The position numbers were made by a program, and so were the translations under genes. Shown here in pieces: positions 3,748 through 23,064 of a stretch of DNA of 38,243 nucleotides. This DNA comes from a virus. The notes under the pieces are model-generated. The model was given only the letters and a program-made list of their open reading frames with translations. It was not told the origin of the DNA and ran no database searches. The DNA lies in the IMG/VR virus record IMGVR_UViG_3300025889_000338, positions 1 to 38,243 of that record. The stretch is one strand, 5' to 3'. Positions within the stretch are counted from its first letter, which is position 1. Every line of letters starts with the position of its first letter.

Positions 3748-3776
3748 ATTCTACCACAAGTAAATTCATATGTACA
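3748..3776 (-). promoter_or_regulatory. TGTACA-N17-TAGAAT promoter of gp41
   Basis: Minus strand: -35-like TGTACA (3776-3771), 17-bp spacer ending TTTACTTGTGG, then -10 TAGAAT (3753-3748). The TGnTAnAAT arrangement is an extended -10. Eight bases separate the -10 from the gp41 ATG. The same layout recurs at several other replication genes in this window. Confidence 0.75.
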
Positions 3777-3777
3777 A

Positions 3778-4167
3778 TTATAATTCGCCTCTTTCACGCA
3801 TTCCTTCTCGTATTTTAGTTGCACTGATATCATGTACTTTTGTACCAAGATCATGTTCTGTAAATGTATAACCTACACCACGACCATAACTAATATCAAC
3901 AATATTAGGTACAAGCATAACTTCAAAGTCCTCATCAGGAACATAACCTTCTTGTACTAAACGACTTTCAATTCTTCGTCTTACGTCGCTAAATACGAAA
4001 GGATTATCCTCTTGTCCTTTTACCATTGCACTCTTACCACCAACATCTCTTACCATGATAGCAACTTGTCCTGTTTTATCGTGGCATCTTTTAAATAGTT
4101 CTGTGTGTCCATCGTGCCATGGCTGCCATCTGCCTAGCATTTGAACTGTTGGTCTTGACCAATCCAT
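3778..4167 (-). CDS. Cytidylyltransferase-like nucleotidyltransferase
   Basis: 129 aa from the ATG at 4167, chosen over an upstream ATG at 4191 because GGAGGAG sits just before it and the start overlaps the previous stop (TAATG). It carries both signatures of the HIGH-type nucleotidyltransferase family: GRWQPWHDGH (HxGH, His18-His21) and ISATKIR (114-120). The family transfers AMP or CMP from a nucleotide triphosphate to phosphorylated small molecules (glycerol-3-P, phosphopantetheine, NMN, heptose-P and others). The phosphate acceptor cannot be told. It follows a DUF2061 protein and an APS-kinase-like protein, suggesting a kinase plus nucleotidyltransferase pathway. Confidence 0.75.
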   Translation of the reverse strand: MDWSRPTVQMLGRWQPWHDGHTELFKRCHDKTGQVAIMVRDVGGKSAMVKGQEDNPFVFSDVRRRIESRLVQEGYVPDEDFEVMLVPNIVDISYGRGVGYTFTEHDLGTKVHDISATKIREGMRERGEL

Positions 4168-4361
4168 TATAGTTCTCCTCCGAGATTCCAAAATCTCTCA
4201 TGTAAATAATAAAATACCATCTTAATCACACCATCAATACCCATGATACTGAGACTTGCAACAGTATTACCTGTTATAAAATATGCCACACAGAATGTCA
4301 CAACAGTTGCTAACACTCTCCATGTCAAAGTCTTATAAATTGATATTCTAACTGACTGCAT
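4167..4361 (-). CDS. DUF2061-like small membrane protein
   Basis: 64 aa with two hydrophobic spans (about 15-31 and 34-53). It carries the pattern KTLTWRVLAT near the N-terminus and YYLHERFW near the C-terminus, which I recognise as DUF2061. In bacteria this domain often occurs near sulfate-activation genes; its function is unknown. The start overlaps the end of the kinase gene by 14 nt, and the stop overlaps the start of the nucleotidyltransferase, so the three genes are translationally coupled. It may anchor the cassette to the membrane, but that is inference. Confidence 0.7.
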   Translation of the reverse strand: MQSVRISIYKTLTWRVLATVVTFCVAYFITGNTVASLSIMGIDGVIKMVFYYLHERFWNLGGEL

Positions 4362-4788
4362 CTATAATATGACTAATTTTTCTAGCCATCTCTTTGATTT
4401 CGTCGTCAGAATAAAATTTGTCTACTCGCCACATGTTACCTTCATAACCTACAGGTGATTCAAACATTTTATTTGTATCTTCAAATCGACCTTCTTTAAT
4501 AGTGTCAAGATAGATAACATAATCAGCATCGAATGTTTCTCTTGTTTCTCTTGTAGGGCAAACAAAATCACATATGACTCTTCGTCCTTTGCTCTTTTCA
4601 AAGTCGGCAATGTTTCTCATTCTTTCTGCTTGTCTTATTCTTGCTTCTGGAGAGAACTCCCAATCATTTGCCATAGCTCTTACTCTATCAGCATTAAACC
4701 AAGCACATTGCCATTCAACAGCTAGTCTTTCTGCTAACCACGTTTTACCTGCACCAGGCAGACCCATTACTAATATTTTTCCTTTCAT
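4348..4788 (-). CDS. APS-kinase (CysC)-like P-loop kinase
   Basis: 146 aa. P-loop GLPGAGKT (9-16). NADRVR (32-37) lies where APS kinases have DGDNVR. WEFSPEARIRQAERM and then VICDFVCPTRETRE match the APS-kinase order GFS..R.ENIRR / AFISPYR. These resemblances place it near adenylylsulfate kinase, but the changed DGD motif and short length leave the acceptor open; it could phosphorylate a sugar or another nucleotide. It is the first gene of a tightly overlapping cassette with DUF2061 and a nucleotidyltransferase. Confidence 0.7.
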   Translation of the reverse strand: MKGKILVMGLPGAGKTWLAERLAVEWQCAWFNADRVRAMANDWEFSPEARIRQAERMRNIADFEKSKGRRVICDFVCPTRETRETFDADYVIYLDTIKEGRFEDTNKMFESPVGYEGNMWRVDKFYSDDEIKEMARKISHIIDAVS

Positions 4789-5105
4789 GCTAAACTACCT
4801 TTTTCTTTAATTACTGCTGAGCCATCTGCAACTGCTTTTTCTAATATGTCTTCTAATATAGCACCAGCAAATTGTTGTAAGAACAAATTCTCTTCAGTCA
4901 GATCGTCGTCTGGAGAATTTATTAATTTAAAATTAAATGTTAAACAATCTTTTTCTTCGTTAAATCCAACATTACCAAATCGTATAACACTTTCAGTAAA
5001 ATCACCTTCAAGTATTCTAATATCCCATGCTTGATCATTATCAGTATCTGATGCAGGTATCATTTCATAATGTACGTTTTCGCTTACTTTATCAATATTA
5101 ATCAT
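4785..5105 (-). CDS. Hypothetical 106-aa acidic protein
   Basis: Start taken at ATG 5105 (MINIDKVSEN), with GAGAAG just upstream. A TTG at 5117 is the longer alternative. The product is soluble, acidic and probably alpha/beta, with no motif I recognise. The pattern FTESVIRFGNVGF followed by CLTFNFKLINSP suggests beta strands, and the C-terminal half is helical (EENLFLQQFAGAILEDILEKAV). It overlaps the preceding oxygenase by 8 nt and the kinase by 4 nt, so it is cotranslated with both. No function can be assigned. Confidence 0.65.
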   Translation of the reverse strand: MINIDKVSENVHYEMIPASDTDNDQAWDIRILEGDFTESVIRFGNVGFNEEKDCLTFNFKLINSPDDDLTEENLFLQQFAGAILEDILEKAVADGSAVIKEKGSLA

Positions 5106-5820
5106 CTTTCTTCTCAAAATATTTTTCTAAAACACCTTCTCCTGGAGAAGATTTGATTCCATGAGGCCAAGATTCTCCCCAACTCCAAAACTCATTAGGT
5201 CTCAAGCAAAAGTTGATCGTTACTCTTTCGTTTATTCCGTCAGCCTTATAATTATGCCAAGTATTTTCTAAATCTCTGACAAAACAATGCAATCTATTTT
5301 GTTTCCAAGGCACAGTTACATAATCTTCAGAGTAACGATCACTCGTCATTGTAGTTCCTTCATTTTGTTCTGATACGTATAGTGTACTTGAAAATAATTT
5401 CCATACACCATCAGTATGACTCCTTCTATAATCGAAGTTTTTGTCGAAGTAACTTAAAGTCATAGTAAACATTGGTTGATATTCAGCAATGTCTTTATAA
5501 CCTAATTTAACTCTAAAATCTAGAATGTCTCGATAGTATTTTTTAGCCATACGTTCACCGAACTCCATTGGCCATTTTGGTGATTCATTATCTAGCCACT
5601 CTGGATATCTTGCTGTCTCATCGACTATTCTAAGCTTTATAAATTTTCCAGTATAATCAAAGAACCAATTATATTTTACACATGTTCTCGATGCAATTGT
5701 AATTTTAGATTGATGCACTTTTGCATATTCAACGATTTGATCAAAATCTTCTTGATCTAACCAATCATCAATGATGAGATGATTCCATGGTTTATCGAAT
5801 TGCTGAATGTTCTTACTCAT
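5098..5820 (-). CDS. 2OG-Fe(II) oxygenase
   Basis: 240 aa with the intact facial triad of 2-oxoglutarate/Fe(II) oxygenases: SHTDG with His135 and Asp137, distal TWHNY with His189, and the 2OG-binding Arg199 in INERVTINFCL. It most likely hydroxylates a protein, sugar or small molecule; the substrate is unknown. Such genes are common in T4-like marine phages. It overlaps uvsX by 8 nt (ends at 5820, uvsX ends at 5813), so it belongs to the recombination operon by position only. Confidence 0.8.
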   Translation of the reverse strand: MSKNIQQFDKPWNHLIIDDWLDQEDFDQIVEYAKVHQSKITIASRTCVKYNWFFDYTGKFIKLRIVDETARYPEWLDNESPKWPMEFGERMAKKYYRDILDFRVKLGYKDIAEYQPMFTMTLSYFDKNFDYRRSHTDGVWKLFSSTLYVSEQNEGTTMTSDRYSEDYVTVPWKQNRLHCFVRDLENTWHNYKADGINERVTINFCLRPNEFWSWGESWPHGIKSSPGEGVLEKYFEKKDD

Positions 5821-6856
5821 CTTCTTCGATATCGATTTCTATACTACTTCCATTGATTGAATAAGCTTGTTTTACTTGCTCTTTAAAGTTAGTTTCATCT
5901 AAGATTGGATTCCAAAACTCTATTGAGTTTGTTTCTGCTTCTCTGAATTTTTTGTCTTCAGATTCACCAGTTTGCGGATTGGTACGTACATACCATCCAG
6001 CACTAGGTTTATTAACAAACCCAAGGGCAAGACCAATATCAAGAAGACCAGACCAACGGCTGATACCACCTTCCCAAGAAACTGAGACAGGAATCTTTGA
6101 CTTTTCTTTAACATAACGTGATTTCTCCACATTTATTATGAAGTCATAACCAGTGACTTCTGTTCCTTTCTTATTCTGTCTTCGACCTACAATCCAAATA
6201 TTATCAGCAGAATAATAGATACCTGTACCACCACTTACAACGTCTTTTGGAAATAGACCGATTTCTTTGTAGGTGTGATTCACTGCAAGTAGTGGTACAT
6301 TTTTCATTTGTAGATATGGTGTTACCATTCTAAATAAACCTTTTAGTGCTTTTGCTCTTGACATATCAGCAACTGATTTTTCATTCAATGCATCTTCTAA
6401 TTCTTTCTTCGATGCTAAGTTACCAACAGAATCAATTACAACAATAACTTTATCACCTTTATCTAACTCTTCTAATTGATGAACTAAGTCAAACTTTAGC
6501 TCTTCAACATTAGTAACAGGTGTGTGTAATACTCTGCTAGTATCAATACCAAAAGTTTCAAAGTAAGATTGTGGGGAACCAAACTCTGAATCATAAAACA
6601 ATAATACTGCATCATCATGTTGCTTCAAATATGCAGAAGCCATAAGCAGCGCAAAACTTGTTTTAAAGTGTTTACTTGGACCAGCAAGCACTGTTAATCC
6701 TGCAGTAAGTCCTTTATCCATATCACCAGATAAAGCAACGTTTACCATAGGAACATCAGTTCGAGTAAATTCTTTTTCAGTAAAAAACTCTGATTCTGAT
6801 AATACGTTTGTGAATTTAACTTTACTATTCTTTTTCAGTTTGTCCATAATTGACAT
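5813..6856 (-). CDS. uvsX: UvsX RecA-like recombinase
   Basis: 347 aa from the ATG at 6856, preceded by GAGAGGTGG at good spacing; an ATG at 6877 in the same frame lacks this. Walker A GPSKHFKTS (59-67) has the unusual form typical of T4 UvsX, and Walker B KVIVVIDSVGN ends at about 145. The C-terminus is strongly acidic (EIDIEEDE), as in UvsX. It forms the strand-exchange filament for recombination-dependent replication, loaded by UvsY, which is also in this window. The start lies 32 nt inside the upstream dehydrogenase gene. Confidence 0.95.
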   Translation of the reverse strand: MSIMDKLKKNSKVKFTNVLSESEFFTEKEFTRTDVPMVNVALSGDMDKGLTAGLTVLAGPSKHFKTSFALLMASAYLKQHDDAVLLFYDSEFGSPQSYFETFGIDTSRVLHTPVTNVEELKFDLVHQLEELDKGDKVIVVIDSVGNLASKKELEDALNEKSVADMSRAKALKGLFRMVTPYLQMKNVPLLAVNHTYKEIGLFPKDVVSGGTGIYYSADNIWIVGRRQNKKGTEVTGYDFIINVEKSRYVKEKSKIPVSVSWEGGISRWSGLLDIGLALGFVNKPSAGWYVRTNPQTGESEDKKFREAETNSIEFWNPILDETNFKEQVKQAYSINGSSIEIDIEEDE

Positions 6857-7691
6857 TTTGGGCCACCTCTCTTTCATCTTTGTCGTAATCTTTACGATAA
6901 TTGTTATTAATACGGTCTACTTCTTTTAGGAGCGACATATTTCCTTCAGCAAAATGCATAAATGCTTTTACATCTTTTGGGAAACATGCACCTCCATATC
7001 CTCGTTTTTTGTCATAACCAGGAACTTTCATATGAGTGTTTCCAACTCTTTCATCTGCAGCAATTGCTCTTGTAATGATATTAAAGTTAGAACCTGTCAT
7101 TTGACATGTATCATATAATTGATTGAAAAATGTAACTTTAGTTGCTAAGTAGCAATTTAAAGCATATTTAACAAAGCTTGCTTCTAATAAACCCATGTGA
7201 TGAAATTCACATCGATTTACATTAGAATATGTTCTGAACATCTCTTGTACAGACGCAGTAGATTCTCTATGACCACCTAAAATTTGATATTTAGGATTAA
7301 TAAATTGCTCTTCTGCATTTTTTTCTGTAAGAAACTCTGGATTGTACACAAGCTTTTTCATTTTAGTTTGTGTTCCAGCTTTTTTAACTAATCTTTCAAC
7401 AACTTCTGGTGTAATCGTTGATTTAATCACAATACCACCATCAACATGATTTAATAATTTAAATACTGAATCATAAACTGAAGTTGCATCAATGGTTCCA
7501 TCATTCATCATTGGAGTAGGAACACATATAAAACTTAAGTTAGGTTTCCATTCTACGAGATCATCTATATTTGTATCATATTTAGGATCAACGTAAAACT
7601 TTTCAACATTACGTACTTCAAAGCCATAATCAACTGCTCTACCTACAAAGCCATGACCTACTATACCAATTCTTAATTTATTTTTATCCAT
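6825..7691 (-). CDS. UDP-glucose/GDP-mannose dehydrogenase-like protein
   Basis: 288 aa. N-terminal Rossmann motif GHGFVG (12-17), middle-domain EASFVKYALNCYLATK with Lys175 and Asn179, and the catalytic-Cys motif YGGACFPKD (Cys236). These match nucleotide-sugar 6-dehydrogenases, which oxidise UDP-glucose or related sugars to uronates using NAD. Normal enzymes are roughly 390-450 aa; this one stops soon after the catalytic Cys and lacks most of the C-terminal UDP-binding domain. Similar short versions may be specialised phage enzymes. The gene overlaps both neighbours (uvsX and the primase-like gene), and I see no frameshift. Confidence 0.8.
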   Translation of the reverse strand: MDKNKLRIGIVGHGFVGRAVDYGFEVRNVEKFYVDPKYDTNIDDLVEWKPNLSFICVPTPMMNDGTIDATSVYDSVFKLLNHVDGGIVIKSTITPEVVERLVKKAGTQTKMKKLVYNPEFLTEKNAEEQFINPKYQILGGHRESTASVQEMFRTYSNVNRCEFHHMGLLEASFVKYALNCYLATKVTFFNQLYDTCQMTGSNFNIITRAIAADERVGNTHMKVPGYDKKRGYGGACFPKDVKAFMHFAEGNMSLLKEVDRINNNYRKDYDKDEREVAQNVNYGQTEKE

Positions 7692-8640
7692 TTTTGTATA
7701 CCCATTCTAAAGCTCGATCGGCTTCCCTCTCAAGCGGTCTGTTTTCATACCAATTACCCGTCTCACGATCAAGTTGTCTGCACATTTCTGCAATTTCTTT
7801 ACTCGTGATAGGATATTCTCTTTTGATCGCATTACCAGCAATAGCAATCATGATTTGATACATCTTATGATACCAACCTGTTCCTGTTATTGTTCTATAT
7901 TCAGTGCCAAGTTGTTTAGGAAAAAAAGGACAGTCAGCATAGCTAGTCCACTTAATGTCAGTGTTGTTAAGTTGACTTTTTCTATACTCTACTACTTCTT
8001 TTCTTAATGCTTCTGGTAATCGGTCTAAAAATGATTTACCTTGTTTTTCTTCATAATGGTGTTTAGCCATTAATTCGTCAGGATTTATATATCTATCTGA
8101 TTCATTTATAAAGAAAAAGTTATATGCTCCAGGATAAACAGCTGGAACATAAAACATTCGAGATAAGTCTTTTGTTTGCTTATCTGCTAATCCTTCTATT
8201 TCTGTATTCAGGGCAAACCAAAAATGTTTGATACGATCTCGTTCAATTTCATCTGTAAGAGGAAATACAATTCTAAACTTTGGTTGTTCTGTTCTACTAG
8301 AAGCAGTAGAATATACAATATAATGATAATCACCAATGATTTCATTCAGTTTATCTTTTAACCAACCTAATGGATTTTCTGCATAGTTTTCATCAGGTTC
8401 TAATTCATCAACGTCGACAGCTACCCATCTTGACCATTTTTCAACATTATCGTTAGATCTTGTTGTACCTTCTTTATACACTGCCATCGATAACAACGGT
8501 GAGGACATTGGTCCACCTTTTTGGCCAGGAAGCATCGATGCTGCTTTCAATAATTTAATAAACTCATCAATGTTAGCACATTCATGTGTCTTATGAGTTT
8601 TATTATCAAAAGTATTTTTAAATACTGTTACGAAGTACAT
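7684..8640 (-). CDS. Primase-polymerase (AEP)-like protein, possible gp61 substitute
   Basis: 318 aa without an obvious zinc-binding or Toprim signature of T4 gp61. It has WVAVDVDEL with Asp76 and Asp78 (DxD), YSTASSR (110-116), PKFRIVFPL (120-128) and DLSRMFYVPA (158-167). This order resembles archaeo-eukaryotic primase/PrimPol-type catalytic domains found in plasmid and phage replication proteins. A helical C-terminal part (about 225-318) may contact helicase or DNA. Its place between the polymerase and recombinase genes, with gp41 helicase nearby and no other primase in view, suggests it primes the lagging strand. The family call is moderate and the role is inference. Confidence 0.55.
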   Translation of the reverse strand: MYFVTVFKNTFDNKTHKTHECANIDEFIKLLKAASMLPGQKGGPMSSPLLSMAVYKEGTTRSNDNVEKWSRWVAVDVDELEPDENYAENPLGWLKDKLNEIIGDYHYIVYSTASSRTEQPKFRIVFPLTDEIERDRIKHFWFALNTEIEGLADKQTKDLSRMFYVPAVYPGAYNFFFINESDRYINPDELMAKHHYEEKQGKSFLDRLPEALRKEVVEYRKSQLNNTDIKWTSYADCPFFPKQLGTEYRTITGTGWYHKMYQIMIAIAGNAIKREYPITSKEIAEMCRQLDRETGNWYENRPLEREADRALEWVYKNG

Positions 8641-9184
8641 GATAAAAATCCATTTCTAATACTTTAGTTTTACCTTTCCAAGTGTTAACATAAGTATAGT
8701 GTTTTACTAATTCTAATTGTTGATTATATTGGTGTACTGCTTTTTTAACATCATTTCTTTCCATATTATCAATCAGTACATAATCACAATTTAAATAATT
8801 TATACAATAGTCTATATCAAGACTAGCACATTCTATAGAATGGTGACCATCTATAAAACCTAAATCAAACTTTTCTTTAAATCCCGTATCTCTTAATGCT
8901 TCAGTCGTCATTTGATAGAATTTAAATCTATCATCATATATTCCTCTAATTACATTTTGGTTACCATGTTTAGGCGATGGTCCAATTGAATGTATTTCTG
9001 ATTCTGGAAATATTTCTAAAAGATATGTCGTAGAATGACCAGCATTAAAACCAATTTCCATAATTTTATATGGTACTGCAATCTGTTTAACCTCTTCAAA
9101 AATATTAAAGATTTCTTGCGTTGGTGGTAAAAAACCCCAACCGTCAGATCTCGGTGGTTTTAAGTGAGATAAGTCTATTTCCAT
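8618..9184 (-). CDS. Class I SAM-dependent methyltransferase
   Basis: 188 aa. Motif I IMEIGFNAGHS (41-51) binds SAM. FDLGFIDGHHSIECASLDID (from 107) and YVLIDN (135-140) match the Methyltransf_24 group, which often acts on sugars or small molecules. The ATG at 9184 follows its own TGTACA-type promoter, with only 6 nt between -10 and ATG, so the mRNA would start at or next to the start codon. The 3' end overlaps the primase-like gene by 23 nt. The substrate is unknown. Confidence 0.75.
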   Translation of the reverse strand: MEIDLSHLKPPRSDGWGFLPPTQEIFNIFEEVKQIAVPYKIMEIGFNAGHSTTYLLEIFPESEIHSIGPSPKHGNQNVIRGIYDDRFKFYQMTTEALRDTGFKEKFDLGFIDGHHSIECASLDIDYCINYLNCDYVLIDNMERNDVKKAVHQYNQQLELVKHYTYVNTWKGKTKVLEMDFYHVLRNSI

Positions 9185-9190
9185 TATTAT

Positions 9191-9219
9191 ATCCTATCAC
9201 AAATGAATGTGATTGTACA
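9191..9219 (-). promoter_or_regulatory. TGTACA-N17-TAGGAT promoter before the methyltransferase
   Basis: TGTACA (9219-9214), 17-bp spacer ending CATTTGTGA, then TAGGAT (9196-9191) on the minus strand, in the gap between gp43 and the methyltransferase. The promoter leaves a leader of about zero bases before ATG 9184. Confidence 0.65.
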
Positions 9220-9223
9220 TGCT

Positions 9224-11707
9224 TTATATAAAAAAATCTTCTAGCGTTGCAACTTCTTTTAATTTCCATCCTATCGCTTCTGCTATCGGTTCGAGTGGTT
9301 CTAAGAAAGTTTTTTCAAACTGTAGTTCATAATCAATATAATTATCTAAACCAAATTCTTTAGGCAAACCATGAGGAAATGCAATAACGTTTTCATTAAT
9401 AGGATTTGGTTTTTTCATATACGCGAATTTAATTTTGGTTCCGTTTTTAATCTCTTCGATCTGAGTCGATAATCCTTTTTCTTTTATAAGTTGATTAAAC
9501 AAGATAGAACCTCTTACATGTATAGGTGTTCCTTTTGCATAACCAGGTGCAGCTCTTCGAGTAAATTTGGTTATGTTGCTAACACCTCGAGGAAACGCGA
9601 CTTCATCAGCTGGAAGAGATTTGAAATGTTCTTCATATCTTTCAATCTCTTTTTGCATGTCGCTTTGAGAACCAGTAAGAATAGTTTTGAATATATCTTT
9701 AAAGTATTTTCGACATATTTGAGGAGTAGAGGATTTAACTGCTTCTATACCCATCATCTTGAGTTTAGGCTTAGCATATTGCACACCTTCAGAATTGTGT
9801 ACATTTAGAATATATCTTTTCTTTGCAATCCATACACCACGATCAGCGATAACTTCTCGTTTCATAACCATTCGATTATCTAGGCAATTGAGTTTATCAT
9901 GAAGATTTTGATAAGCATTTTCTAGAGTATCTTCTAATTTGATGCAAACTTCATCGAGAAATTTAACTGGATTGTTTGGTTTAAATTGTTTTACAAATGC
10001 ATCCATTTTAACATACAGAGAATCTGTATCGATTGCGACAACATAATCTTTGTCTGTTTTAAACATCTTGTTTATTTCATCGTTAACTGCTTTTTCTGCC
10101 CATTGGATTGCTAACTGACCAGTAAGAGTAACAGATTCGGCTACACGTTGATCAAAATACCTAAAGTATTTGTTACCAAGTGCACCATAAAGAGAGTTCA
10201 TCAAAATCTTAATCGCCATCTGATGATTATTGAGAGCATCAATTTCATCTCTCAATTTTTTAGTAGTAGCTTTTTCATATTCTATTTGAGCTTTGATCAT
10301 CTCATTTTTGATCACTACTCTATCATCATAATATTGACGAATGATTCTTGGAATAACGCCTTCTATATCCTTTCTAAATCTTACACCAGAAGGGGCAAGT
10401 GTATAATCACCTGTATCTGGAAATAATCCATCAAGCGCTTTACTTACACTAATATCATTTTCATAACCATCTATCACCGTTTCAGTACTCATATTCCATT
10501 GAACGATAATATTAGGATAAAGTGAATTTAAATCGAAAGAGCATATCCAATCATGACCACCGACATGAGGTTCTTTTACATAGCCACCAGCGAATGGTGT
10601 TTTTACTTTCTCGCTTTTAAATGGAACAGCGACTTTTTCTTTATTCAACATTCGATAGATGATTGAATCCCAAATGTTTGTAGTTCCAAAGGTATCGACA
10701 TAATTTGCACCAGCTTTATATGCCATCGTCATGATCAAAGTAATAAGACCCAATCTCTCTTCTAAACGATCAACGAGTTCGACGTCTCGAATATTATAGT
10801 CGATAAACTTCTGATAATCTTCTTTATATAAGTTGTTAAGGGAACCAAACTCTTCGTATGATAATTTTCTTTCGTCCAATACAACGTGTGCAATGTGATC
10901 TAGACGATAAGATTCTTGTTGACCATACGTGTTTAAGCAAAACTTTTTAAATGATTTTTGATAATCAAGTATTTGCAAACCATTAATCTTACAATAAGTT
11001 ACTTGTTGTCCGCGATCTATACCAGCTTCCAATCTTGGCATTATACCCCAAGGTGATAGTCTTTTTATTGATTGAGGACCAATAACTTTTGATATTCTGT
11101 TCGCGAGATATGTTAAATCGAAATATTCTACGTTCCAACCAGTAACTACATCTGGCATATAATCAGGATCATTCCAAAACTTTAGAAAGTTATCGAGCAT
11201 ATCAAATTCAGTATCATATTGGTGATATACAACATCATCGCGAGTTACATTATAATCTCGCATACCAAATACGTGATATTTGTTGTCCTTATTATTTTTA
11301 GTTGTGATTGAAATAAGAGGATAGTTTGCTTCTTCGGGAATAGGGAAACCTTCTTCTGATTCTACCTCGATATCGATGGTTGTAACGTTTATCTCGTCAC
11401 GATTAAATTTGATTTCTTCTGGCCAAACATTTGTGATAAATTGAAAGATGAAATTGTTTTGACCATGGATTTCAATACCGTCTACATGTTCATAACGTTT
11501 GATGAAGTTATTTGCTTCACTCATCGTTTCGAATGTAACTGGTTCTACGTTTTTACCGTTAATTGATTTCCATTCTGATTGAACTGATGGATTGACTGGA
11601 TATAATACAGGTTTGAAAGGTATTCTTTCGATGTGTCTTCTACCATCTTTATAACCGCGAAGCAAGATAGTATTTGCTTGACGTTCGACACTTGTATAAT
11701 ATTTCAT
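9224..11707 (-). CDS. 43: DNA polymerase gp43 (family B)
   Basis: 827 aa. Proofreading exonuclease motifs: DIE (112-114), WNVEYFD (191-197) and YNIRD (304-308). Polymerase motifs: A FDLNSLYP (391-398), B K500 with NSLYGALGN (504-512), and C DTDS (560-563). All catalytic acids are present. The C-terminus LEDFFI resembles the short hydrophobic tail by which T4 polymerase docks on the sliding clamp gp45. No intein or intron interrupts it. It is driven by a TGTACA-type promoter at 11715-11743 with almost no leader; RegA, encoded upstream, is known in T4 to repress translation of replication genes. Confidence 0.97.
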   Translation of the reverse strand: MKYYTSVERQANTILLRGYKDGRRHIERIPFKPVLYPVNPSVQSEWKSINGKNVEPVTFETMSEANNFIKRYEHVDGIEIHGQNNFIFQFITNVWPEEIKFNRDEINVTTIDIEVESEEGFPIPEEANYPLISITTKNNKDNKYHVFGMRDYNVTRDDVVYHQYDTEFDMLDNFLKFWNDPDYMPDVVTGWNVEYFDLTYLANRISKVIGPQSIKRLSPWGIMPRLEAGIDRGQQVTYCKINGLQILDYQKSFKKFCLNTYGQQESYRLDHIAHVVLDERKLSYEEFGSLNNLYKEDYQKFIDYNIRDVELVDRLEERLGLITLIMTMAYKAGANYVDTFGTTNIWDSIIYRMLNKEKVAVPFKSEKVKTPFAGGYVKEPHVGGHDWICSFDLNSLYPNIIVQWNMSTETVIDGYENDISVSKALDGLFPDTGDYTLAPSGVRFRKDIEGVIPRIIRQYYDDRVVIKNEMIKAQIEYEKATTKKLRDEIDALNNHQMAIKILMNSLYGALGNKYFRYFDQRVAESVTLTGQLAIQWAEKAVNDEINKMFKTDKDYVVAIDTDSLYVKMDAFVKQFKPNNPVKFLDEVCIKLEDTLENAYQNLHDKLNCLDNRMVMKREVIADRGVWIAKKRYILNVHNSEGVQYAKPKLKMMGIEAVKSSTPQICRKYFKDIFKTILTGSQSDMQKEIERYEEHFKSLPADEVAFPRGVSNITKFTRRAAPGYAKGTPIHVRGSILFNQLIKEKGLSTQIEEIKNGTKIKFAYMKKPNPINENVIAFPHGLPKEFGLDNYIDYELQFEKTFLEPLEPIAEAIGWKLKEVATLEDFFI

Positions 11708-11714
11708 AGTCCCT

Positions 11715-11743
11715 ATTCTACCACAAGTAAAATTAAAAGTACA
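11715..11743 (-). promoter_or_regulatory. TGTACT-N17-TAGAAT promoter of gp43
   Basis: TGTACT (11743-11738), 17-bp spacer ending TTTACTTGTGG, then TAGAAT (11720-11715). The 11-base spacer end and the -10 are identical to the gp41 promoter. Seven bases lie between the -10 and the gp43 ATG. Confidence 0.75.
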
Positions 11744-13106: not shown

Positions 13107-13763
13107 CTATATATACGTTTTTGGGTTTGTAGGACCCTCAATTCCAAAAGAAATTGCTAATCGAGTTTCTAAAGGTTCGATATAGTGATACGTACCTCTT
13201 GGAATCCATAACAACTGGTCTGGTTCAAATACTCTTTCCCAAAACTTTTCTGCTTTATCTAAATCTGATTTTGGGTTAAATGTATCTTCTGGAGATACAA
13301 GAGTATTGTGTAATGGTGAAACTGGAACAGTTGGTTTCCACAATGATAATTTCACCCTACCTAAAACTTGTAAATATACCACGTCCATTCTATCGCGGTG
13401 TATTTTAAAACTTTCTGCATCTGCAGTAAAACTTCCAAACCCTATTGCTGTAATATGGTTCCGATGAAATGTAATACGCATACGCTGTAGCAGGTCTTTA
13501 AACCATTGAGGCACGGAATCTCTACGTTCTAAGTGTCTTAATTCTATTGCGTTTTGCTTATACTTATATACTTTAAGCTTTTTCTTTTGCTCACCATTAA
13601 GGTCATCTTTTGGGTGTCCTTCGATAAGTTTAACCCAATCTATAAAAGAAAAATCTTTGACTTTGTTTATTTTACCAAAGAAGTGAGGTTTTCCTGCTCT
13701 AACATCTTCTATAAATTTACTGTTTATTTCCGATGTTGTATTTTGCACAAAGCTCCCATTCAT
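13107..13763 (-). CDS. JmjC/cupin-like putative 2OG oxygenase
   Basis: 218 aa. IHRDRMDVVYLQVLGRVKLSLWKP (H122-R-D124, then the strand with G135), and later DQLLWIPRGTYHYIE with His193, follow the layout of JmjC/cupin_4 oxygenases (HxD, then L-x-IPxGxxH). This predicts an Fe(II) and 2-oxoglutarate enzyme, possibly a protein hydroxylase. The ATG at 13763 has AAGGA upstream and lies 47 nt inside regA. The substrate is unknown; a non-catalytic cupin is the alternative. Confidence 0.65.
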   Translation of the reverse strand: MNGSFVQNTTSEINSKFIEDVRAGKPHFFGKINKVKDFSFIDWVKLIEGHPKDDLNGEQKKKLKVYKYKQNAIELRHLERRDSVPQWFKDLLQRMRITFHRNHITAIGFGSFTADAESFKIHRDRMDVVYLQVLGRVKLSLWKPTVPVSPLHNTLVSPEDTFNPKSDLDKAEKFWERVFEPDQLLWIPRGTYHYIEPLETRLAISFGIEGPTNPKTYI

Positions 13764-14130: not shown

Positions 14131-14494
14131 CTTTATCCACCTTTTGTTTTATTTGTTTTAATTGCTCGGAACTGAGGAGTGGGAGTGCCTGTCTGGCCTT
14201 TTCATTACTATATCCATAATACTCCATAATCACCTCAATGTCCTCGCTGGTTTCAGGTTTGATCCATTTCGAGAATCTTTTTCTTTGTCTGATTATATTT
14301 ATATAAAATTCGTATTGTAAACGATTATCAAGATGATGATACTGATTCATGATATTAGCATAAGCAATTGTATCTTGGAAATACGAAAGCGTACGATTTA
14401 CAAGAAATGGATTATAAGCTTTCTCATCAATATCATCTTTCATGATATTTTTCTTTGTCCAGTTTATACTATTCAGATAGTCGAATGGGTTCAT
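14108..14494 (-). CDS. 62: Clamp loader small subunit gp62
   Basis: 128 aa. NPFDYLNSINWTKKNI, YNPFLVNRTLSYF, DTIAYANIMNQYH and RQRKRFSKWIKPE are hallmarks of T4 gp62. In T4 a single gp62 joins four gp44 ATPases to open the gp45 clamp and load it on DNA. It is shorter than T4 gp62 (about 187 aa), as in marine relatives. In T4 gp44 and gp62 are adjacent and translationally coupled; here an oxygenase gene lies between them, overlapping gp62 by 26 nt. Confidence 0.88.
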   Translation of the reverse strand: MNPFDYLNSINWTKKNIMKDDIDEKAYNPFLVNRTLSYFQDTIAYANIMNQYHHLDNRLQYEFYINIIRQRKRFSKWIKPETSEDIEVIMEYYGYSNEKARQALPLLSSEQLKQIKQKVDKGGRRTNS

Positions 14495-15005
14495 GTAAAT
14501 ATCTCAAGTTCATTGCTATACATGTTCTTTTTGCTTCTTCGTTTATCGCAGGTAAAACACCATGCACTAAAGAGGAATCAAACAATACAAACATATTTGG
14601 TTTTGGTTCTATTTCAATATCAGGGTTTTGAAACACTAAACTTCCACACCCTTCATCTGCAACTAAGTAATATATGGCCGATAATCTTTGATGTGGTCCT
14701 TCATGATGATGCATTGCTGTACCTTCACCATTTTCGTAATCTAATCCCCATATGTCACTATTTACTTTATATCTGCCCTTCATCATTTCTGATACTTTTT
14801 GTGAAAATACGTTTCTACAATTCTCAAAAGTATTTTCATTAAACTTGTAAGGCTGATATATTTTACAGTATGCAGTATTTAATCTAATGCTTGTTTTAGA
14901 TTGTTCTTTTGATGCTTTTTCTCTGATTTTAGCTATTAAGAAATCTCTATCTTCTAATTCTAACTCAACTGTAGCTAAAAGAGGTTTGCTATTTAAAACT
15001 AACAT
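14469..15005 (-). CDS. 2OG-Fe(II) oxygenase-like protein inserted between gp44 and gp62
   Basis: 178 aa. MHHHEGPHQRLSAIYYLV (His99-His101, Glu102, His105), then GSLVFQNP, then PNMFVLFDSSLVHGVLP with His148, and Arg160 in AKRTCIAMNLRY. This is the order of the 2OG-Fe(II) oxygenase family whose first motif is H-x-H/N rather than HxD. Catalysis is plausible but the metal ligands are less certain than in the 5098-5820 gene. It overlaps gp44 by 17 nt and gp62 by 26 nt, so it is translated with the clamp loader. Confidence 0.65.
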   Translation of the reverse strand: MLVLNSKPLLATVELELEDRDFLIAKIREKASKEQSKTSIRLNTAYCKIYQPYKFNENTFENCRNVFSQKVSEMMKGRYKVNSDIWGLDYENGEGTAMHHHEGPHQRLSAIYYLVADEGCGSLVFQNPDIEIEPKPNMFVLFDSSLVHGVLPAINEEAKRTCIAMNLRYLHEPIRLSE

Positions 15006-15974: not shown

Positions 15975-16184
15975 TTATTCAGCAGATGCTTCAGCTCTGT
16001 TTGCTTCACAAACTTGAACCAATTGTACTGCTTGGTCTCGTAGTTGACCGATTGTAGTCAACTCTTCACCGCGGAAACCACCACGTTGAACAACTGTATC
16101 AATCACAGCAATTACTGATCTTGACACTCTGTTCGATAGATCATATACTTGATCATGATTTTTTTCTGCTTTTTTGTCAGCCAT
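15975..16184 (-). CDS. Conserved-looking 69-aa protein after the clamp
   Basis: 69 aa, begins 1 nt after the gp45 stop, with a terminator right behind its own stop. Charged N-terminus (MADKKAEKNHD), then a mostly helical body (VYDLSNRVSRSVIAVIDTVVQRGG and QLRDQAVQLVQVCEANRAEA). No motif recognised. Tight coupling to gp45 and high predicted expression suggest a small partner of the replication or late-transcription complex, but this is only inferred from position. Confidence 0.7.
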   Translation of the reverse strand: MADKKAEKNHDQVYDLSNRVSRSVIAVIDTVVQRGGFRGEELTTIGQLRDQAVQLVQVCEANRAEASAE

Positions 16185-16185
16185 T

Positions 16186-16860
16186 TTAACCTCCGAAGGT
16201 TGAGTGTTTTTCTAGCGCTATAAAATATTCAACAGAATCTTCTACTTTCTTAAATCTCGATATATTACGAGAAGATAGTTCAACTTCGTAATCACCAGGA
16301 ATAAGCTTTAGATTGTCTGTTAGAATATAAACTTTAAAGTTGTCACTTTTGTATTCACCATCAACATCTATTGAGAAAATGTTTGATGTAGAATTTTTTG
16401 CATCAGCTACTGCGATGTTAAGAACACCATCAACAACTGATACACATATTTCAGAATGACTTAGCACAGATGCAGCTTTTTTAAGTTTATTCACTACACT
16501 ATTTTGTAGAGTAAACTTTACATCTGCTTCTGGCATTTCAATATTCTTTTCTGTAGAAGTAAGCATTTCAGGATCGGAAAAGAAATACTTAACACGAGAT
16601 CTTCCAGCTGAATCACCAACAAAGACATAGTTGTCTTCAAACTTAAGTCTTGGTCCATCAACCAAGTTAAGTACGCTGAGAAATTCATTGAGATCATATA
16701 TGCCGACTTGTTGAGGAAATTCAACGTCGACTGTTGCAGAACCCATAACATTTTTAGCTTCTGCTACTGTCTTTAGAACATTACCAGGTTTAATCACTAA
16801 GTTAGGATTAATAGTAGCAAAGTTCTTTAAGACATCGAGGGTTTTATCAGATAGTTCCAT
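16186..16860 (-). CDS. 45: DNA sliding clamp gp45
   Basis: 224 aa, standard length for T4 gp45. The opening MELSDKTLDVLKNFATINPNLVIKPG and the later VGIYDLNEFLSVLNLV match the T4 clamp, as does VEYFIALEKHSTF at the end. It forms the trimeric ring that tethers gp43 to DNA and, with gp55, acts as the mobile activator of late promoters. Its own TGTACA-type promoter at 16888-16916 gives a leader of about 20 nt with TTGGAG as ribosome site. Confidence 0.93.
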   Translation of the reverse strand: MELSDKTLDVLKNFATINPNLVIKPGNVLKTVAEAKNVMGSATVDVEFPQQVGIYDLNEFLSVLNLVDGPRLKFEDNYVFVGDSAGRSRVKYFFSDPEMLTSTEKNIEMPEADVKFTLQNSVVNKLKKAASVLSHSEICVSVVDGVLNIAVADAKNSTSNIFSIDVDGEYKSDNFKVYILTDNLKLIPGDYEVELSSRNISRFKKVEDSVEYFIALEKHSTFGG

Positions 16861-16887
16861 AATATAGCTCCAAGTTCAATTATATCC

Positions 16888-16916
16888 ATTGTATCACAAG
16901 TAACATTTATTGTACA
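16888..16916 (-). promoter_or_regulatory. TGTACA-N17-TACAAT promoter of gp45
   Basis: TGTACA (16916-16911), 17-bp spacer ending GTTACTTGTGA, TACAAT (16893-16888). Transcription would begin near 16881 and run through gp45 and the 69-aa gene to the terminator at 15939-15969. Confidence 0.75.
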
Positions 16917-16921
16917 TGCAA

Positions 16922-18646: not shown

Positions 18647-18649
18647 AAT

Positions 18650-18811
18650 CTATTTGCTTTTTATTTGTTTCAATCTGTTCTTTGCTTTTTTAAGCGTAGG
18701 AACAAGTTCATTATATATTATAGTCTTATTTTTATCATAACCAACTATTCTATACTTTACAGTTTCATTGTCAAAGTATGCAGGTATAATTTCATAATCA
18801 CTATCTCTCAT
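18650..18811 (-). CDS. 53-aa protein between gp47 and gp46
   Basis: ATG 18811 overlaps the gp47 stop (TGATG), with GGAG 8 nt upstream inside gp47, and the TAG stop ends 3 nt before gp46. 53 residues, beginning MRDSDYEIIPAYFDNETVKY and ending in a very basic helix (LKKAKNRLKQIKSK). T4 also has small genes between 47 and 46; I cannot establish homology. The basic tail could bind nucleic acid or the nuclease complex, which is inference. Confidence 0.7.
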   Translation of the reverse strand: MRDSDYEIIPAYFDNETVKYRIVGYDKNKTIIYNELVPTLKKAKNRLKQIKSK

Positions 18812-19875
18812 CAAAAGATCTCCAATGATTGAGCTTCAAGCATAAGATTTTTAACTTGTGCTTTTAGTTTATCTTTATCTAAATCTGTTTCAACGGCATC
18901 TATATATGTGCTTAATAAGGTGTCTGTATCATCTAATTTAATTGATTCATCTTCAACATTTGTACCAATAAATTCGTTAAAGTTTTCTGCAATCTTCAAC
19001 TCATGTATATTTCTGTTTTGTATTCTATCAATCAATGTATCAAATACAAATGAATCTTTTTTGTTTACTACAATAACTTTAACAAACTTTTCATTTAGAT
19101 AATCTAGGTCCATGTTCATATAATCATAATCACCTGAATCATCATAATAGATCTTTTCAAATAATCTTAATGGACTTCTAACTGGTGTAAGTTCACGTGT
19201 TTCTGTATCAAATATGTGAAAGTATTTTGGATCATCACAATCGTTCCAGAAAAATTCCATTTGAGAACCTAAATATGTAATATTTCCCTTTGTAGATTTA
19301 GTATGAAAGTGGCCAGACAATACCATCTCGAAACGAGAAAATATGTCTGGCTCCATTCCATGGGTGCAAGGGATTCCTTTGTGCATTTCAAAACCTGTTA
19401 ATTCTAAGTGAGCACCCACTATATCAGCATCACAAGTCTTTAAGAAATGCATTATTTGATCTTCGTTTTCTGAATTAATCCATGGTAATAGTGCCATTTT
19501 CATACCATCATAATCCATTACCTTTGGATCCATTATAAGATTGATTTCATTCATATAATGACCAAGTAATTCTTTTAATGAGTTCAAATCATTTGTGTTT
19601 TTATAATATACGTCATGGTTACCAGGAATAAGATCCATCGTGATACCATATTCTCTTAGTTTAGACAAAAACACTTGGCGATGGTGATTTAATCCTTTGA
19701 TAGAAATAAAACGACGATTATCAAAGTAATCACCTAAATGAACAATGTGTTTGATATTATTCTCATTCATATAAGGAAAGAATACGTCTGTATAGAACTT
19801 TCCTTGATGATCTAAGAATATGTCTGATGAGTTACGTATACACGCGTGTGTATCGTTAAGTATTGCGAATTTCAA
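18811..19875 (-). CDS. 47: Recombination endonuclease subunit gp47 (Mre11/SbcD-like)
   Basis: 354 aa. Complete metallophosphoesterase motif set: NDTH (7-10), GDYFDNR (48-54), GNHD (85-88), GAHLE with His156, and SGHFH (187-191). It is the nuclease partner of gp46. It starts directly after the gp55 stop and couples to the 53-aa gene at its end. Confidence 0.95.
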   Translation of the reverse strand: MKFAILNDTHACIRNSSDIFLDHQGKFYTDVFFPYMNENNIKHIVHLGDYFDNRRFISIKGLNHHRQVFLSKLREYGITMDLIPGNHDVYYKNTNDLNSLKELLGHYMNEINLIMDPKVMDYDGMKMALLPWINSENEDQIMHFLKTCDADIVGAHLELTGFEMHKGIPCTHGMEPDIFSRFEMVLSGHFHTKSTKGNITYLGSQMEFFWNDCDDPKYFHIFDTETRELTPVRSPLRLFEKIYYDDSGDYDYMNMDLDYLNEKFVKVIVVNKKDSFVFDTLIDRIQNRNIHELKIAENFNEFIGTNVEDESIKLDDTDTLLSTYIDAVETDLDKDKLKAQVKNLMLEAQSLEIF

Positions 19876-20460
19876 TTATAAAAACTCCGTTAAGTCTGAG
19901 TCAGCATAAACTGTTCTTTTCTTTCTTTTCTTTTTTTCAACAGTAGCAAATGATTTTACTGCTGCGTCTGTATCTTTTACTCGATCGATTCTTTCCTTTA
20001 ACCCTTCGACAAAAGATCTAACCTGTTCATTATTCTGATCACTACCCTCTTCAATAAACTCTTCGATGTCCATTTGAGATAGATACTTCAACTTAATATC
20101 TTGTTGTTTCTTTTCTTTTGCTATCCTTCTTAAAAAAGCATACCAAGTAATCTGTGTAAAATAGGCAAAAGCATTTGCTTTACCTGTTCTTGTAGCAGCT
20201 TCAATATTATAATTCTCAATAACTTTCAAACAGTTTTCAACTGCATCCATTACCATTTCTTCTCTATAAGTATATCTTACAAAATTAGATTTGTGCGATA
20301 AACCTTCTGCGATCTTTAAAAAAGATTCTGCAATATAATCTGGAACAATTGGTACTTTCGCTTTTGTTTTTTTCGCTTTTCTTACTTCTAATACGTAATC
20401 ACATACTGCAGTAGAAAAATCATTGTTATTTACATAATGAAGATTAGGTTTTCTTGCCAT
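19876..20460 (-). CDS. 55: Late-transcription sigma factor gp55
   Basis: 194 aa. LHYVNNNDFSTAV start, AEGLSHKSNFVRYTYREEMVMDAVENCLKVIENYN and FAYFTQITWYAFLRRIAKEKK (region 2-like helices) match T4 gp55. The C-terminus DSDLTEFL looks like the short hydrophobic-acidic tail by which T4 gp55 contacts the gp45 clamp; the polymerase here ends in a similar LEDFFI. gp55 directs host RNA polymerase to TATAAATA late promoters, several of which lie in this window. It is driven by the TGTAAA-N17-TATAAT promoter at 20484-20512, with ribosome site AAAGGAA. Confidence 0.9.
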   Translation of the reverse strand: MARKPNLHYVNNNDFSTAVCDYVLEVRKAKKTKAKVPIVPDYIAESFLKIAEGLSHKSNFVRYTYREEMVMDAVENCLKVIENYNIEAATRTGKANAFAYFTQITWYAFLRRIAKEKKQQDIKLKYLSQMDIEEFIEEGSDQNNEQVRSFVEGLKERIDRVKDTDAAVKSFATVEKKKRKKRTVYADSDLTEFL

Positions 20461-20483
20461 AATATATTCCTTTAATGTTAACC

Positions 20484-20512
20484 ATTATACCACAGTTAAA
20501 TCTTTTTTTACA
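20484..20512 (-). promoter_or_regulatory. TGTAAA-N17-TATAAT promoter of gp55
   Basis: TGTAAA (20512-20507), 17-bp spacer ending TTTAACTGTGG, and a consensus -10 TATAAT (20489-20484) with extended TGG. Leader about 17 nt. Confidence 0.7.
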
Positions 20513-20536
20513 TCAAAATATTTTTTCGTCGGCCTA

Positions 20537-20565
20537 TGTACATATTCTAATTTTTGTGATAAAAT
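20537..20565 (+). promoter_or_regulatory. Plus-strand TGTACA-N17-TAAAAT promoter
   Basis: On the plus strand: TGTACA (20537-20542), 17-bp spacer ending TTTTTGTGA, TAAAAT (20560-20565). It has the same layout as the minus-strand promoters but faces right, away from gp55 and into the end of the LSm-like gene. No credible plus-strand gene follows, so any transcript starting near 20572 would be antisense. Confidence 0.5.
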
Positions 20566-20595
20566 AATACTGTATCCCACAGAGAAGAGAATACC

Positions 20596-21105
20596 CTAGT
20601 GAATTGTATCATCATCTTTCTTTTTGAAAATACTAATTACATTATCCGGATTTTCTTCACTTAAATCGAGTGTACGTTTTTCTTTCTTTTTAACTGTAGT
20701 AGGTTTTTTATTTTCAAGTTTTTTTATTTGTTCTTTTACTGTTTCAAGATCTTGTTTAAATTTCTCTCGCGCCATTATTTTCGAATCGTATATTTCACCC
20801 ATTTGTTTTATTCCTACAATGTATTGATCTAAAAGAAGTGGAGATGGTTGGCATTCTGCTACAATCATTTCGCTCTTTAAAAATGTTGGGTTGTCTGCGT
20901 CTTCACCATATACCATCCATGGATTAAGTGAGTAATATCTATATGGTTCTTCTTCTGGATCCATGTCTACTACTTTCAATTGTAGTGACATGCACGATTT
21001 TACATGCATATCAAAATCGCCAGAAAAATTTTCGAAGGTTTCGTCGACGACTTCGCAAATTATTTCTTCACCGTTGATAAGTTTTAGTTGTCTTATGTCT
21101 TTCAT
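20596..21105 (-). CDS. LSm-like protein next to gp55
   Basis: 169 aa. The N-terminal half begins RQLKLINGEEIICEVVDE, a pattern like the first strands of Sm/LSm folds, and continues with further strands to about residue 90 (SLNPWMVYG, SEMIVAECQP). The second half is helical and very basic (EQIKKLENKKPTTVKKKEKRT), ending NVISIFKKKDDDTIH. Function unknown. Its position between UvsW and gp55 and its basic linker allow a role in RNA binding or as a late-transcription coactivator. Neither is proven. Confidence 0.6.
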   Translation of the reverse strand: MKDIRQLKLINGEEIICEVVDETFENFSGDFDMHVKSCMSLQLKVVDMDPEEEPYRYYSLNPWMVYGEDADNPTFLKSEMIVAECQPSPLLLDQYIVGIKQMGEIYDSKIMAREKFKQDLETVKEQIKKLENKKPTTVKKKEKRTLDLSEENPDNVISIFKKKDDDTIH

Positions 21106-22574
21106 ATTTTTACTTCGAAAATTTTATGTTTAAACTGTTCTTTATTATATATTTTTACTCTTTCGGCACAATGTTGAAGTGTAAAGTTTTGTCGACTGTG
21201 CCAATGTAAATCATCTGCTATATCATATAGAGTTGTATCTCGTCCATCATCGCTCTTTCTCAATCCTCTACCTATACTCTGTAATACTCTGATTTGAGAT
21301 TTTGAAGGTGAGGCGAATATAATATTATGAAGGTTTTTAATATTTATACCAGTGCTAAATGTCCCGAGAGATGCAATAACGATTGCATTCTTTTGTTTTT
21401 CTATAATTTTACGTATAGCTTCTCGATCAGAAGTATCTGTTTCTCCTGATACGTAGTATACTTTATTCTTTGATTTTTCCTCAATCATATCAAATAATAC
21501 TTTCCCGTGTTTTTCAACGTATTGAAAGAGTACAAGCGTGTTTCCTTCCTGGGTCGTCGCGAGTTTCGTGATGAATTTATTACGAGGTTCGTGTTGTACA
21601 ATCCAATCGATCTCTTCCTGATATGTTCTATTACCAAAGTCTTGTCTTATCTCGTTATCATACTTAAGCATAATGATTTTGATATCGAGATCTGCTAATG
21701 TTTTGTTTTCTTGTAAGTCTTTTGTTGTTATAACCTTTTTAACAGGACCAAATAATCCTGTCAGTACTAATCTATTTACTTGTGTACCATCGAGTGTACC
21801 CGTTGTTCCATATCGATATTCTGCTTCAGTGCATTTGTTCATTATTGATGATAATGATTTTGCTTTAAATCCATGACACTCATCACCAAATACGCATCCA
21901 AATTGTTCGAACCAATCTTTCTTTAGTTTGTATATTGACTGCCATGTAGATATAATCACTCGTTTGTCTGTTACTTTATCTTTTCCAGAATAAATGATAT
22001 GACATTCATTATCTGCATCAAATCCATAAGATTTAAAGTCATTAAACATCTGCTCGACGAGCGACGTCGTTGGAACGATAACGAGAATATTGTCGTCGTG
22101 ATTGTCTAAATACCAACGTAATAATGTATAAATGATAAGTGATTTACCTGAACCTGTAGGTGATTGTAATACACCTCTCTTATGTACAATACCATAAGCA
22201 ACAGCATCATATTGATAATCTCGTATCTCCCATGGAAGATTGAGACTATTGATATACTTCATTAGGTCTAAGTGATTTATACTATTTTTGGTATTTGGAA
22301 GACCATAGGTATCGTCTTCTCTCATGGTTAATGTGTAACCACGATTCATGCAGAAATCTTTTAGCTTAAGATATAAACCTGCATTCAATTCGTTTGTAAG
22401 TCTATTGAATAAACGAATCTTTCCATCCCATAATCTTTTACGATATAATGGTTGAAATTTATAGCCTGGAGCAAAGAATGAGAAATGTTCTGAGAGTTCC
22501 TGATTTATTCCAGGCTCACAGTCGACATATAACATACTATTGTTTTTTAGCGTAATTTCTAAATTATCCGCCAC
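21102..22574 (-). CDS. uvsW: UvsW recombination DNA/RNA helicase
   Basis: 490 aa, close to T4 UvsW. An N-terminal DNA-binding part (about 1-110), then superfamily-2 motifs: SPTGSGKS (138-145), DECH (231-234), GTTGT (256-260) and QSIGRGLR (432-439). UvsW unwinds R-loops and branched DNA and switches replication from origin-dependent to recombination-dependent mode. It overlaps the uvsY end by 11 nt, the usual uvsY-uvsW arrangement. Confidence 0.93.
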   Translation of the reverse strand: MADNLEITLKNNSMLYVDCEPGINQELSEHFSFFAPGYKFQPLYRKRLWDGKIRLFNRLTNELNAGLYLKLKDFCMNRGYTLTMREDDTYGLPNTKNSINHLDLMKYINSLNLPWEIRDYQYDAVAYGIVHKRGVLQSPTGSGKSLIIYTLLRWYLDNHDDNILVIVPTTSLVEQMFNDFKSYGFDADNECHIIYSGKDKVTDKRVIISTWQSIYKLKKDWFEQFGCVFGDECHGFKAKSLSSIMNKCTEAEYRYGTTGTLDGTQVNRLVLTGLFGPVKKVITTKDLQENKTLADLDIKIIMLKYDNEIRQDFGNRTYQEEIDWIVQHEPRNKFITKLATTQEGNTLVLFQYVEKHGKVLFDMIEEKSKNKVYYVSGETDTSDREAIRKIIEKQKNAIVIASLGTFSTGINIKNLHNIIFASPSKSQIRVLQSIGRGLRKSDDGRDTTLYDIADDLHWHSRQNFTLQHCAERVKIYNKEQFKHKIFEVKI

Positions 22575-23007
22575 TCTCGAATTTTCTCCACTCGATAATA
22601 TTCTTAATGTTTTGATGACGCCATGTCAAACTAGAAATGATGTCCATTAATGTATCTATTACCGTTCTATAGTAAGTAAGTCTCTCTTCTGATTTTCTTA
22701 TTTCAGGATCTGTATCATAATAATGATCCATTTCACCTTTTAATATTTTTAATCCATTAAATGGGTCTGGATTCCATCCTTTTTCTTTTATTTCCTCTTC
22801 AGAAAGTTTACCATTATACCAAAGCCACTTATCTTTAAGCAAAGCTTTTTGTTCGCCTTCAACTTGTTTTAAACTAAGTTTGGCGTCTGTAAGAAGTTTA
22901 AGGTATTTAGCGTGTAAGATTGGTGTGTTTAAAGAAGTTTCATCTAATCGCATCTTATCGATTTTACAATCAACTTCCCACATTTCATGTAGTTCTTTTA
23001 AATTCAT
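22564..23007 (-). CDS. uvsY: UvsY recombination mediator
   Basis: 147 aa. Mostly helical, with MNLKELHEMWEVDCKID, LHAKYLKLLTDAKLSLK, LWYNGK and a C-terminal RHQNIKNIIEWRKFESGG, in line with the T4 UvsY pattern and length. UvsY loads UvsX onto gp32-coated single strands. The start lies 30 nt downstream of a -10 TATAAT (23042-23037). I see no clear ribosome site in the AT-rich leader. Adjacent uvsW supports the call. Confidence 0.85.
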   Translation of the reverse strand: MNLKELHEMWEVDCKIDKMRLDETSLNTPILHAKYLKLLTDAKLSLKQVEGEQKALLKDKWLWYNGKLSEEEIKEKGWNPDPFNGLKILKGEMDHYYDTDPEIRKSEERLTYYRTVIDTLMDIISSLTWRHQNIKNIIEWRKFESGG

Positions 23008-23036
23008 AATATAAAAAATAAAGTTATAACGGTACC

Positions 23037-23064
23037 ATTATACCACAATGGCTGGAAAAATACA
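23037..23064 (-). promoter_or_regulatory. TGTATT-N16-TATAAT promoter of uvsY
   Basis: Consensus extended -10 TGTGGTATAAT (10-mer core shared with the gp55 promoter) at 23047-23037. The -35 is a weaker TGTATT with 16-bp spacing. It separates the structural block from the recombination block. Confidence 0.6.

Follow-up and report, generated by a model that had tools for sequence, protein, structure and literature searches.

Probable T4-type early promoters with an interchangeable -35 word ahead of the replication genes of a marine T4-like phage

The replication genes of a T4-like virus fragment are repeatedly preceded by sequences resembling TGTACA-N17-TAnAAT, which raises the question of what class of promoter this is and which polymerase would read it. 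The window, as we call the whole stretch of DNA analyzed, comprises 38,243 bases of this virus, has its genes on the minus strand, and is only 3.2% non-coding. It carries a T4-like gene set that includes gp41, uvsX, gp43, regA, gp62, gp44, gp45, gp46, gp47, gp55, uvsW, uvsY, gp23, and gp20, and its nearest named phage is Phage C48C1, which is classed in the Kyanoviridae. A search of the window against Rfam returned no family. At positions 3778-4191, 4167-4361, and 4348-4788 (minus strand), two ORFs match two halves of a single PHROG kinase family (phrog_10255), so this kinase gene looks split or frameshifted. Seven sites in the window resemble the motif:

3748 to 3776, minus strand: early-type promoter of gp41 (TGTACA-N17-TAGAAT, TGTGG preceding the -10; 20.5 bits; ATG 8 nt past the -10)
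9191 to 9219, minus strand: early-type promoter of the Methyltransf_24 gene at 8618-9184 (TGTACA-N17-TAGGAT, TGTGA; 17.8 bits; start codon 6 nt past the -10)
11715 to 11743, minus strand: early-type promoter of gp43 (TGTACT-N17-TAGAAT, TGTGG; 20.7 bits; start codon 7 nt past the -10)
16888 to 16916, minus strand: early-type promoter of gp45 (TGTACA-N17-TACAAT, TGTGA; 20.7 bits; leader with GGAG)
20484 to 20512, minus strand: early-type promoter of gp55 (TGTAAA-N17-TATAAT, TGTGG; 19.9 bits)
20537 to 20565, plus strand: divergent early-type promoter near gp55 (TGTACA-N17-TAAAAT, TGTGA; 20.2 bits)
23037 to 23065, minus strand: weak uvsY promoter site (TGTGG-TATAAT with TGTATT at 16 bp and no good -35 at 17 bp; 7.5 bits)

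A preliminary description of this DNA had listed five minus-strand sites with a TGTACA-like -35, a 17-bp spacer, and TAnnAT. All five are present, far above shuffled sequence and at the top of the matrix ranks, although only those at 3748, 9191, and 16888 have exactly TGTACA, while 11715 reads TGTACT and 20484 reads TGTAAA. The weaker sixth site proposed at 23037 retains a weak likeness, but TGTATT with a 16-bp spacer stands there in place of a TGTA at 17 bp. The plus-strand site at 20537-20565, which that description lacked, is a full-strength member of the motif. The first genes it assigned to the sites (gp41, a methyltransferase, gp43, gp45, gp55, and uvsY) agree with our gene identities, the methyltransferase being Methyltransf_24 in Pfam. 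The shared spacer end it proposed, TTACTTGTGG/A, is exact at 3748, 11715, and 16888 only, whereas TGTGG/A is common to all. Overall, TGR-TAnnAT is found at all seven sites and a -35 element lies 17 bp from the -10 at six of them, the uvsY site having 16 bp. In the region from -40 to -60, where the T4 early class has its A/T-rich UP element, several sites also have A/T tracts, in a background that is itself A/T-rich.

Exact TGTACA-N17-TAnnAT occurs four times in the window (3748, 9191, and 16888 on the minus strand and 20537-20565 on the plus strand) against 0.25 expected, and none of 100 shuffles reached four. The pattern TGTA-N14-TGTGRTAnnAT was found six times versus 0.005 per shuffle (maximum of 1 in 200 shuffles). 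We also scored the window with a matrix trained on related phages (40 sites, with the window and its near-identical contigs left out). With this relatives-only matrix the same six sites rank first (17.8-20.7 bits) and the uvsY site seventh, while the rest of the window reaches at most 6.9 bits and the shuffled window yields 0.09 sites at ≥14 bits. The preliminary description had named a frequency no higher than in shuffled sequence as grounds for abandoning the motif; the opposite was found, and all seven sites fall wholly in non-coding DNA. The TGTACA-type promoter family of the window is a real, repeated signal. No TTGAC-N18-TAnAAT was found in the window, no promoter spacer of the window sites contains a MotA box (TGCTTtA) 11-13 bp from the -10, and the late element TATAAATA is absent from the early-type sites. 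Late-promoter-like TATAAATA octamers lie on the minus strand at 2339, 14296, 21341, 23612, 27485, 32445, 32461, and 36931, mostly directly ahead of structural or small genes. The sites stand ahead of genes for replication and transcription and differ from these late promoters, and by position they agree with the early/middle class that had been suggested for them.

The start codons of gp41, gp43, and the methyltransferase gene lie 8, 7, and 6 nt past the -10, respectively (window 3739-3753, 11707-11720, and 9184-9196), so their mRNAs are predicted to be leaderless or to have a leader of a few bases, whereas the gp45, gp55, and uvsY leaders would be about 17-24 nt. Many relatives share the short gap between the gp43 -10 and its ATG (about 6-12 nt); a second group has a gap of about 21-31 nt, in which GGAG is mostly present.

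Many relatives retain the gp45 promoter, some with as little as 46% protein identity, and almost all of them have a spacer of 17. In nearly all loci having a promoter, a TATAAT-like -10 is preceded by TGTGR or similar, and the -35 reads TGTACA, TTTACA, TTTACT, or TTGACA depending upon the lineage. Even at about 85% DNA identity, loci L007 and L008 have gTTTACt where the window has aTGTACa, with position and spacing kept. Among 80 loci picked by gp45 similarity alone, with the motif not a criterion, TGTAC, TTTAC, and TTGAC occur 17, 13, and 2 times at a spacing of 17 before TGTGRTAnnAT, counts that come from related and hence non-independent sequences, and TGTAC is found at no other spacing between 10 and 25. 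C48C1 has TTGAC-type promoters ahead of gp41, gp43, gp45, gp55, uvsY, and the methyltransferase gene; it has no exact TGTACA site, its upstream regions reading TTGACA. All these loci hold a single promoter family that varies in its -35 letters between relatives.

The preliminary description had found the motif unlike sigma70 TTGACA and unlike the T4 MotA box, and had suggested that an unusual host factor or a phage activator may read it. It left out the T4 early promoter, with the consensus GTTTAC-N18-TAnnnT (PMC1524935; GTTTAC at -36 to -31), which the motif fits apart from -34 and -36, and the -35 words of the same promoters in relatives likewise speak against the need for an unusual factor. 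The 38 T4 sites matching this consensus have TTGTGR ahead of the -10 and A/T at -30, and when a matrix of the window sites was scanned over T4, as the preliminary description had advised for related phages, seven of the top nine matches were T4 early promoters. Because of the mismatch at -34, a T4 early matrix used alone scored the window sites no higher than the best-scoring shuffles. The window has TGTAC/TGTAA rather than T4's own letters GTTTAC, and T4 in turn has no TGTAC site. Since T4-like phages vary in their -35 letters (PMC1524935), as do L007 and L008 relative to the window, GTTTAC would mark T4 rather than the early class, and the window promoters, whose letters differ from it, would be a variant and not a plain member of the T4 early class. 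Among the papers available to search, none on phages was found to describe TGTACA early promoters; a list of E. coli RpoD promoters includes a few with TGTACA (PMC3946193).

We then considered the -35 word across whole contigs, counting five -35 letters followed by N18 and TAnAAT (TGTAC/TTTAC/TTGAC):

G007: 17/3/1
G009: 21/2/1
G010: 27/4/1
G003: 1/23/1
G004: 1/22/0
G002: 0/14/1
G011: 0/19/0
G012: 0/24/1
G005 (mixed): 9/11/2
G006 (mixed): 4/16/1
C48C1: 1/5/17
T4: 0/12/1

Pooled TGTAC:TTTAC counts are 65:9 in the first three genomes and 2:102 in the next five (G002, G003, G004, G011, and G012); because G007, G009, and G010 were reached partly via TGTACA-bearing loci, these counts speak for the contrast within genomes and not for the natural share of TGTAC genomes. 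A TATAC control gave 0-4 per genome, with the exception of G010 (10). The TGTAC promoters of G010, the contig of locus L110, also have an extra spacer motif (TGTACAwTAAwTCGT...), a lineage-specific extension. A -35 word that behaves as a genome-wide dialect in T4-like marine phages would be new. In a tree of six core proteins, the window (TGTAC) groups with C48C1 (TTGAC) with a support of 0.95, while G009 and G010 (TGTAC) are placed elsewhere. The TGTAC genomes form no clade, which rules out the dialect as a single inherited trait, and on this tree it is polyphyletic. In our view, it reflects the host sigma factor, DNA modification, or a small phage factor. We searched for proteins shared by the three TGTAC genomes but missing from every full TTTAC/TTGAC genome compared, a test that small or fast-evolving proteins would escape. 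Only two candidates for a phage regulator exclusive to TGTAC genomes emerged: ThyX, which G002 (TTTAC) has as well, and a low-complexity protein that recurs in the mixed genome G005. This leaves no convincing gene that tracks the dialect among the genomes compared. The AsiA and MotA families were absent from all 14 relatives searched and recovered in T4; the window itself is a genome fragment, such that a regulator encoded elsewhere in the same genome could escape.

We consider it very probable that the window sites are T4-type early promoters of a marine, Kyanoviridae-like T4-like phage with the -35 dialect TGTACA/T, most likely read by the host polymerase with its primary sigma factor. The lack of AsiA and MotA in the 14 relatives searched, the lack of a convincing TGTAC-exclusive gene, and the interchange of dialects all argue for this reader. 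Motif, position, spacing, conservation, and the interchange of -35 words at fixed promoters are direct observations, whereas reading by a sigma70-type host polymerase, early timing, and the start sites are deduced from them. Each promoter would consist of a -35 element, exactly 17 bp, and an extended -10 (TGTGR-TAnAAT), and the host enzyme would need no phage activator: sigma regions 2 and 3 would contact the -10 and TGn, region 4 would contact the -35, and the extended -10 would carry much of the recognition (PMC2988021). Typically, two of the three sigma70 elements (-35, TGn, and -10) suffice (PMC2988021). The window phage would spell its -35 TGTACA/T where relatives have TTTACA/T or TTGACA at the same promoter, and these promoters would switch on gp41, gp43, gp45, gp55, the methyltransferase gene, and, weakly, uvsY, before gp55 and gp45 bring the late TATAAATA promoters into play. 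A point against this reading is that TGTACA lacks T(-34) and G(-33), well conserved bases of the sigma70 -35; that TGTACA is nevertheless kept genome-wide suggests that something reads it.

Other explanations were weighed against host polymerase reading. The near-identity of the gp41 and gp43 sites across about 40 bp, which may mean that they are one duplicated and thus non-independent promoter, could hint at chance likeness or recent duplication with no regulatory class behind it, but this is refuted by the shuffle and matrix results, the non-coding placement, the 80 gp45 loci, and the conservation of the promoter ahead of orthologs whose proteins are about 50% identical, leaving its probability close to nil. 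An alternative host sigma factor, such as a stress or extracytoplasmic one, would fit a TGTACA that is not a standard primary-sigma -35; since the -10 has the TGn-TAnAAT form of primary-sigma promoters and the -35 swaps with TTGACA at the same promoter, we consider it very improbable. A phage activator or sigma-remodeling protein, MotA/AsiA-like in action but unrelated, could instead bind TGTACA in place of sigma region 4, defining a middle-type class whose dialect switches with the activator. TGTACA is a perfect palindrome, and the concerted -35 spelling within genomes (TGTAC:TTTAC of 17:3, 21:2, and 27:4 versus 1:23, 1:22, 0:14, 0:19, and 0:24) suggests a trans-acting reader. Nonetheless, with AsiA/MotA homologues in none of 14 relatives, the only candidates being the two proteins shared with G002 and G005, the sigma70 -35 spacing retained, the same promoter alternating with TTTACA and TTGACA, and two genomes mixed (9:11 and 4:16), an activator seems quite unlikely.

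DNA base modification might set the dialect, if a modified major-groove base at -35 bars TTGACA and thereby selects for TTTACA or TGTACA, while unmodified phages keep TTGACA and a host sigma70-type polymerase still reads the promoter. It is a cause for the dialect that is compatible with reading by the host polymerase. T4 DNA carries modified cytosine. At -33, T is the T4 base, but G is favored in RB49, RB43, and Aeh1 (PMC1524935). The window has JmjC-like and 2OG-Fe(II) oxygenase-like genes within its replication cluster (13107-13763 and 14469-15005, minus strand), whose products could, but need not, act on DNA. TGTACA, on the other hand, puts a C at -34 of the opposite strand, which a rule based on cytosine alone fails to explain. 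We consider modification as the driver unlikely.

The divergent promoter at 20537-20565 (plus strand) points away from gp55 and would fire antisense to the gene at 20596-21105, with the following start:

20572 to 20600, plus strand: purine-rich bases with which the divergent RNA is predicted to begin (GTATCCCACAGAGAAGAGAATACCC...; start placed from the -10)

Most of 62 distinct gp55 upstream regions have an early-type promoter directed away from gp55 and opposite to the genes, as do C48C1, pelagiphage Mosig, and cyanophages Syn1, S-RSM4, and DSL-LC03; loci noted for it are L008, L038, L045, L068, L325-L404, and L405-L408. It is conserved across cyanophages, a pelagiphage, and the clade of the window, which would be new. 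In G003, G004, G005, and G010 it is the sole or nearly the sole strong early-type promoter on that strand. The predicted RNA start is strongly G-rich in most relatives, with a G fraction of 0.32 in the first 30 bases versus 0.19 at other promoters (P about 2e-18, which is too small a value because the sequences are related). A 5'-terminal hairpin was rejected, as the mean folding z-score over 45 sequences was -0.05 with no excess structure, and an origin was not indicated by GC skew, which follows the single coding strand with no switch near 20.5 kb. The divergent promoter is possibly an R-loop origin or a source of regulatory antisense RNA, and a conserved gp55-upstream promoter without a gene to serve is a lead towards either.

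Taken together, these results give marine T4-like phages a simple model of their promoters. Middle promoters had not been found in such phages in earlier work (PMC9004378), and for pelagimyophages cyanophage promoter rules could not be applied (PMC7029224). The shifts of -35 spelling at the same promoters are a natural test of the way phage promoters follow their reader. A tentative joint reading, which we would currently lean against, is that T4-like marine phages repeatedly switch genome-wide -35 dialects (TGTAC, TTTAC, and TTGAC) at otherwise fixed early promoters, driven by some reader, be it an altered sigma region 4, a factor of the phage, or modification of the DNA, and that a G-rich antisense RNA from the conserved gp55-divergent promoter primes replication as at T4 oriE.

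The T4 origins oriE, oriF, and oriG, which combine a promoter with an R-loop primer, similarly have a phage promoter with a transcript against the neighboring gene; oriE needs an early promoter (PMC3016281), and the T4 record describes the oriE primer RNA as complementary to the transcript of gene 5. The available part of the origin literature describes no conserved G-rich RNA start for the T4 origins. The window sites share architecture and spacing with the canonical sigma70 promoter (TTGACA-N17-TATAAT), a form that C48C1 uses at the same genes, but have G at -34 and T at -33. T4 middle promoters, with a MotA box (TGCTTtA) centered at -30, likewise often have an extended -10 and serve replication genes, but the window sites lack that box and differ in spacing, and the relatives searched lack MotA/AsiA homologues. 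Whereas T4 has MotA middle promoters for genes 43 and 45 (PMC2988021), the window has an early-type promoter directly ahead of gp43 and gp45. The early promoters of RB49, RB43, and Aeh1 are also T4-type with phage-dependent -35 letters, except that the window retains T at -33 and alters -34. Relative to T4 early promoters, the window differs in its G at -34 and in mostly having no G at -36, but shares with them the 17-bp spacing from the -35 hexamer, the bases T(-33), A(-32), C(-31), and A/T(-30), a TTGTGR that precedes TAnnAT, and a location ahead of prereplicative genes.
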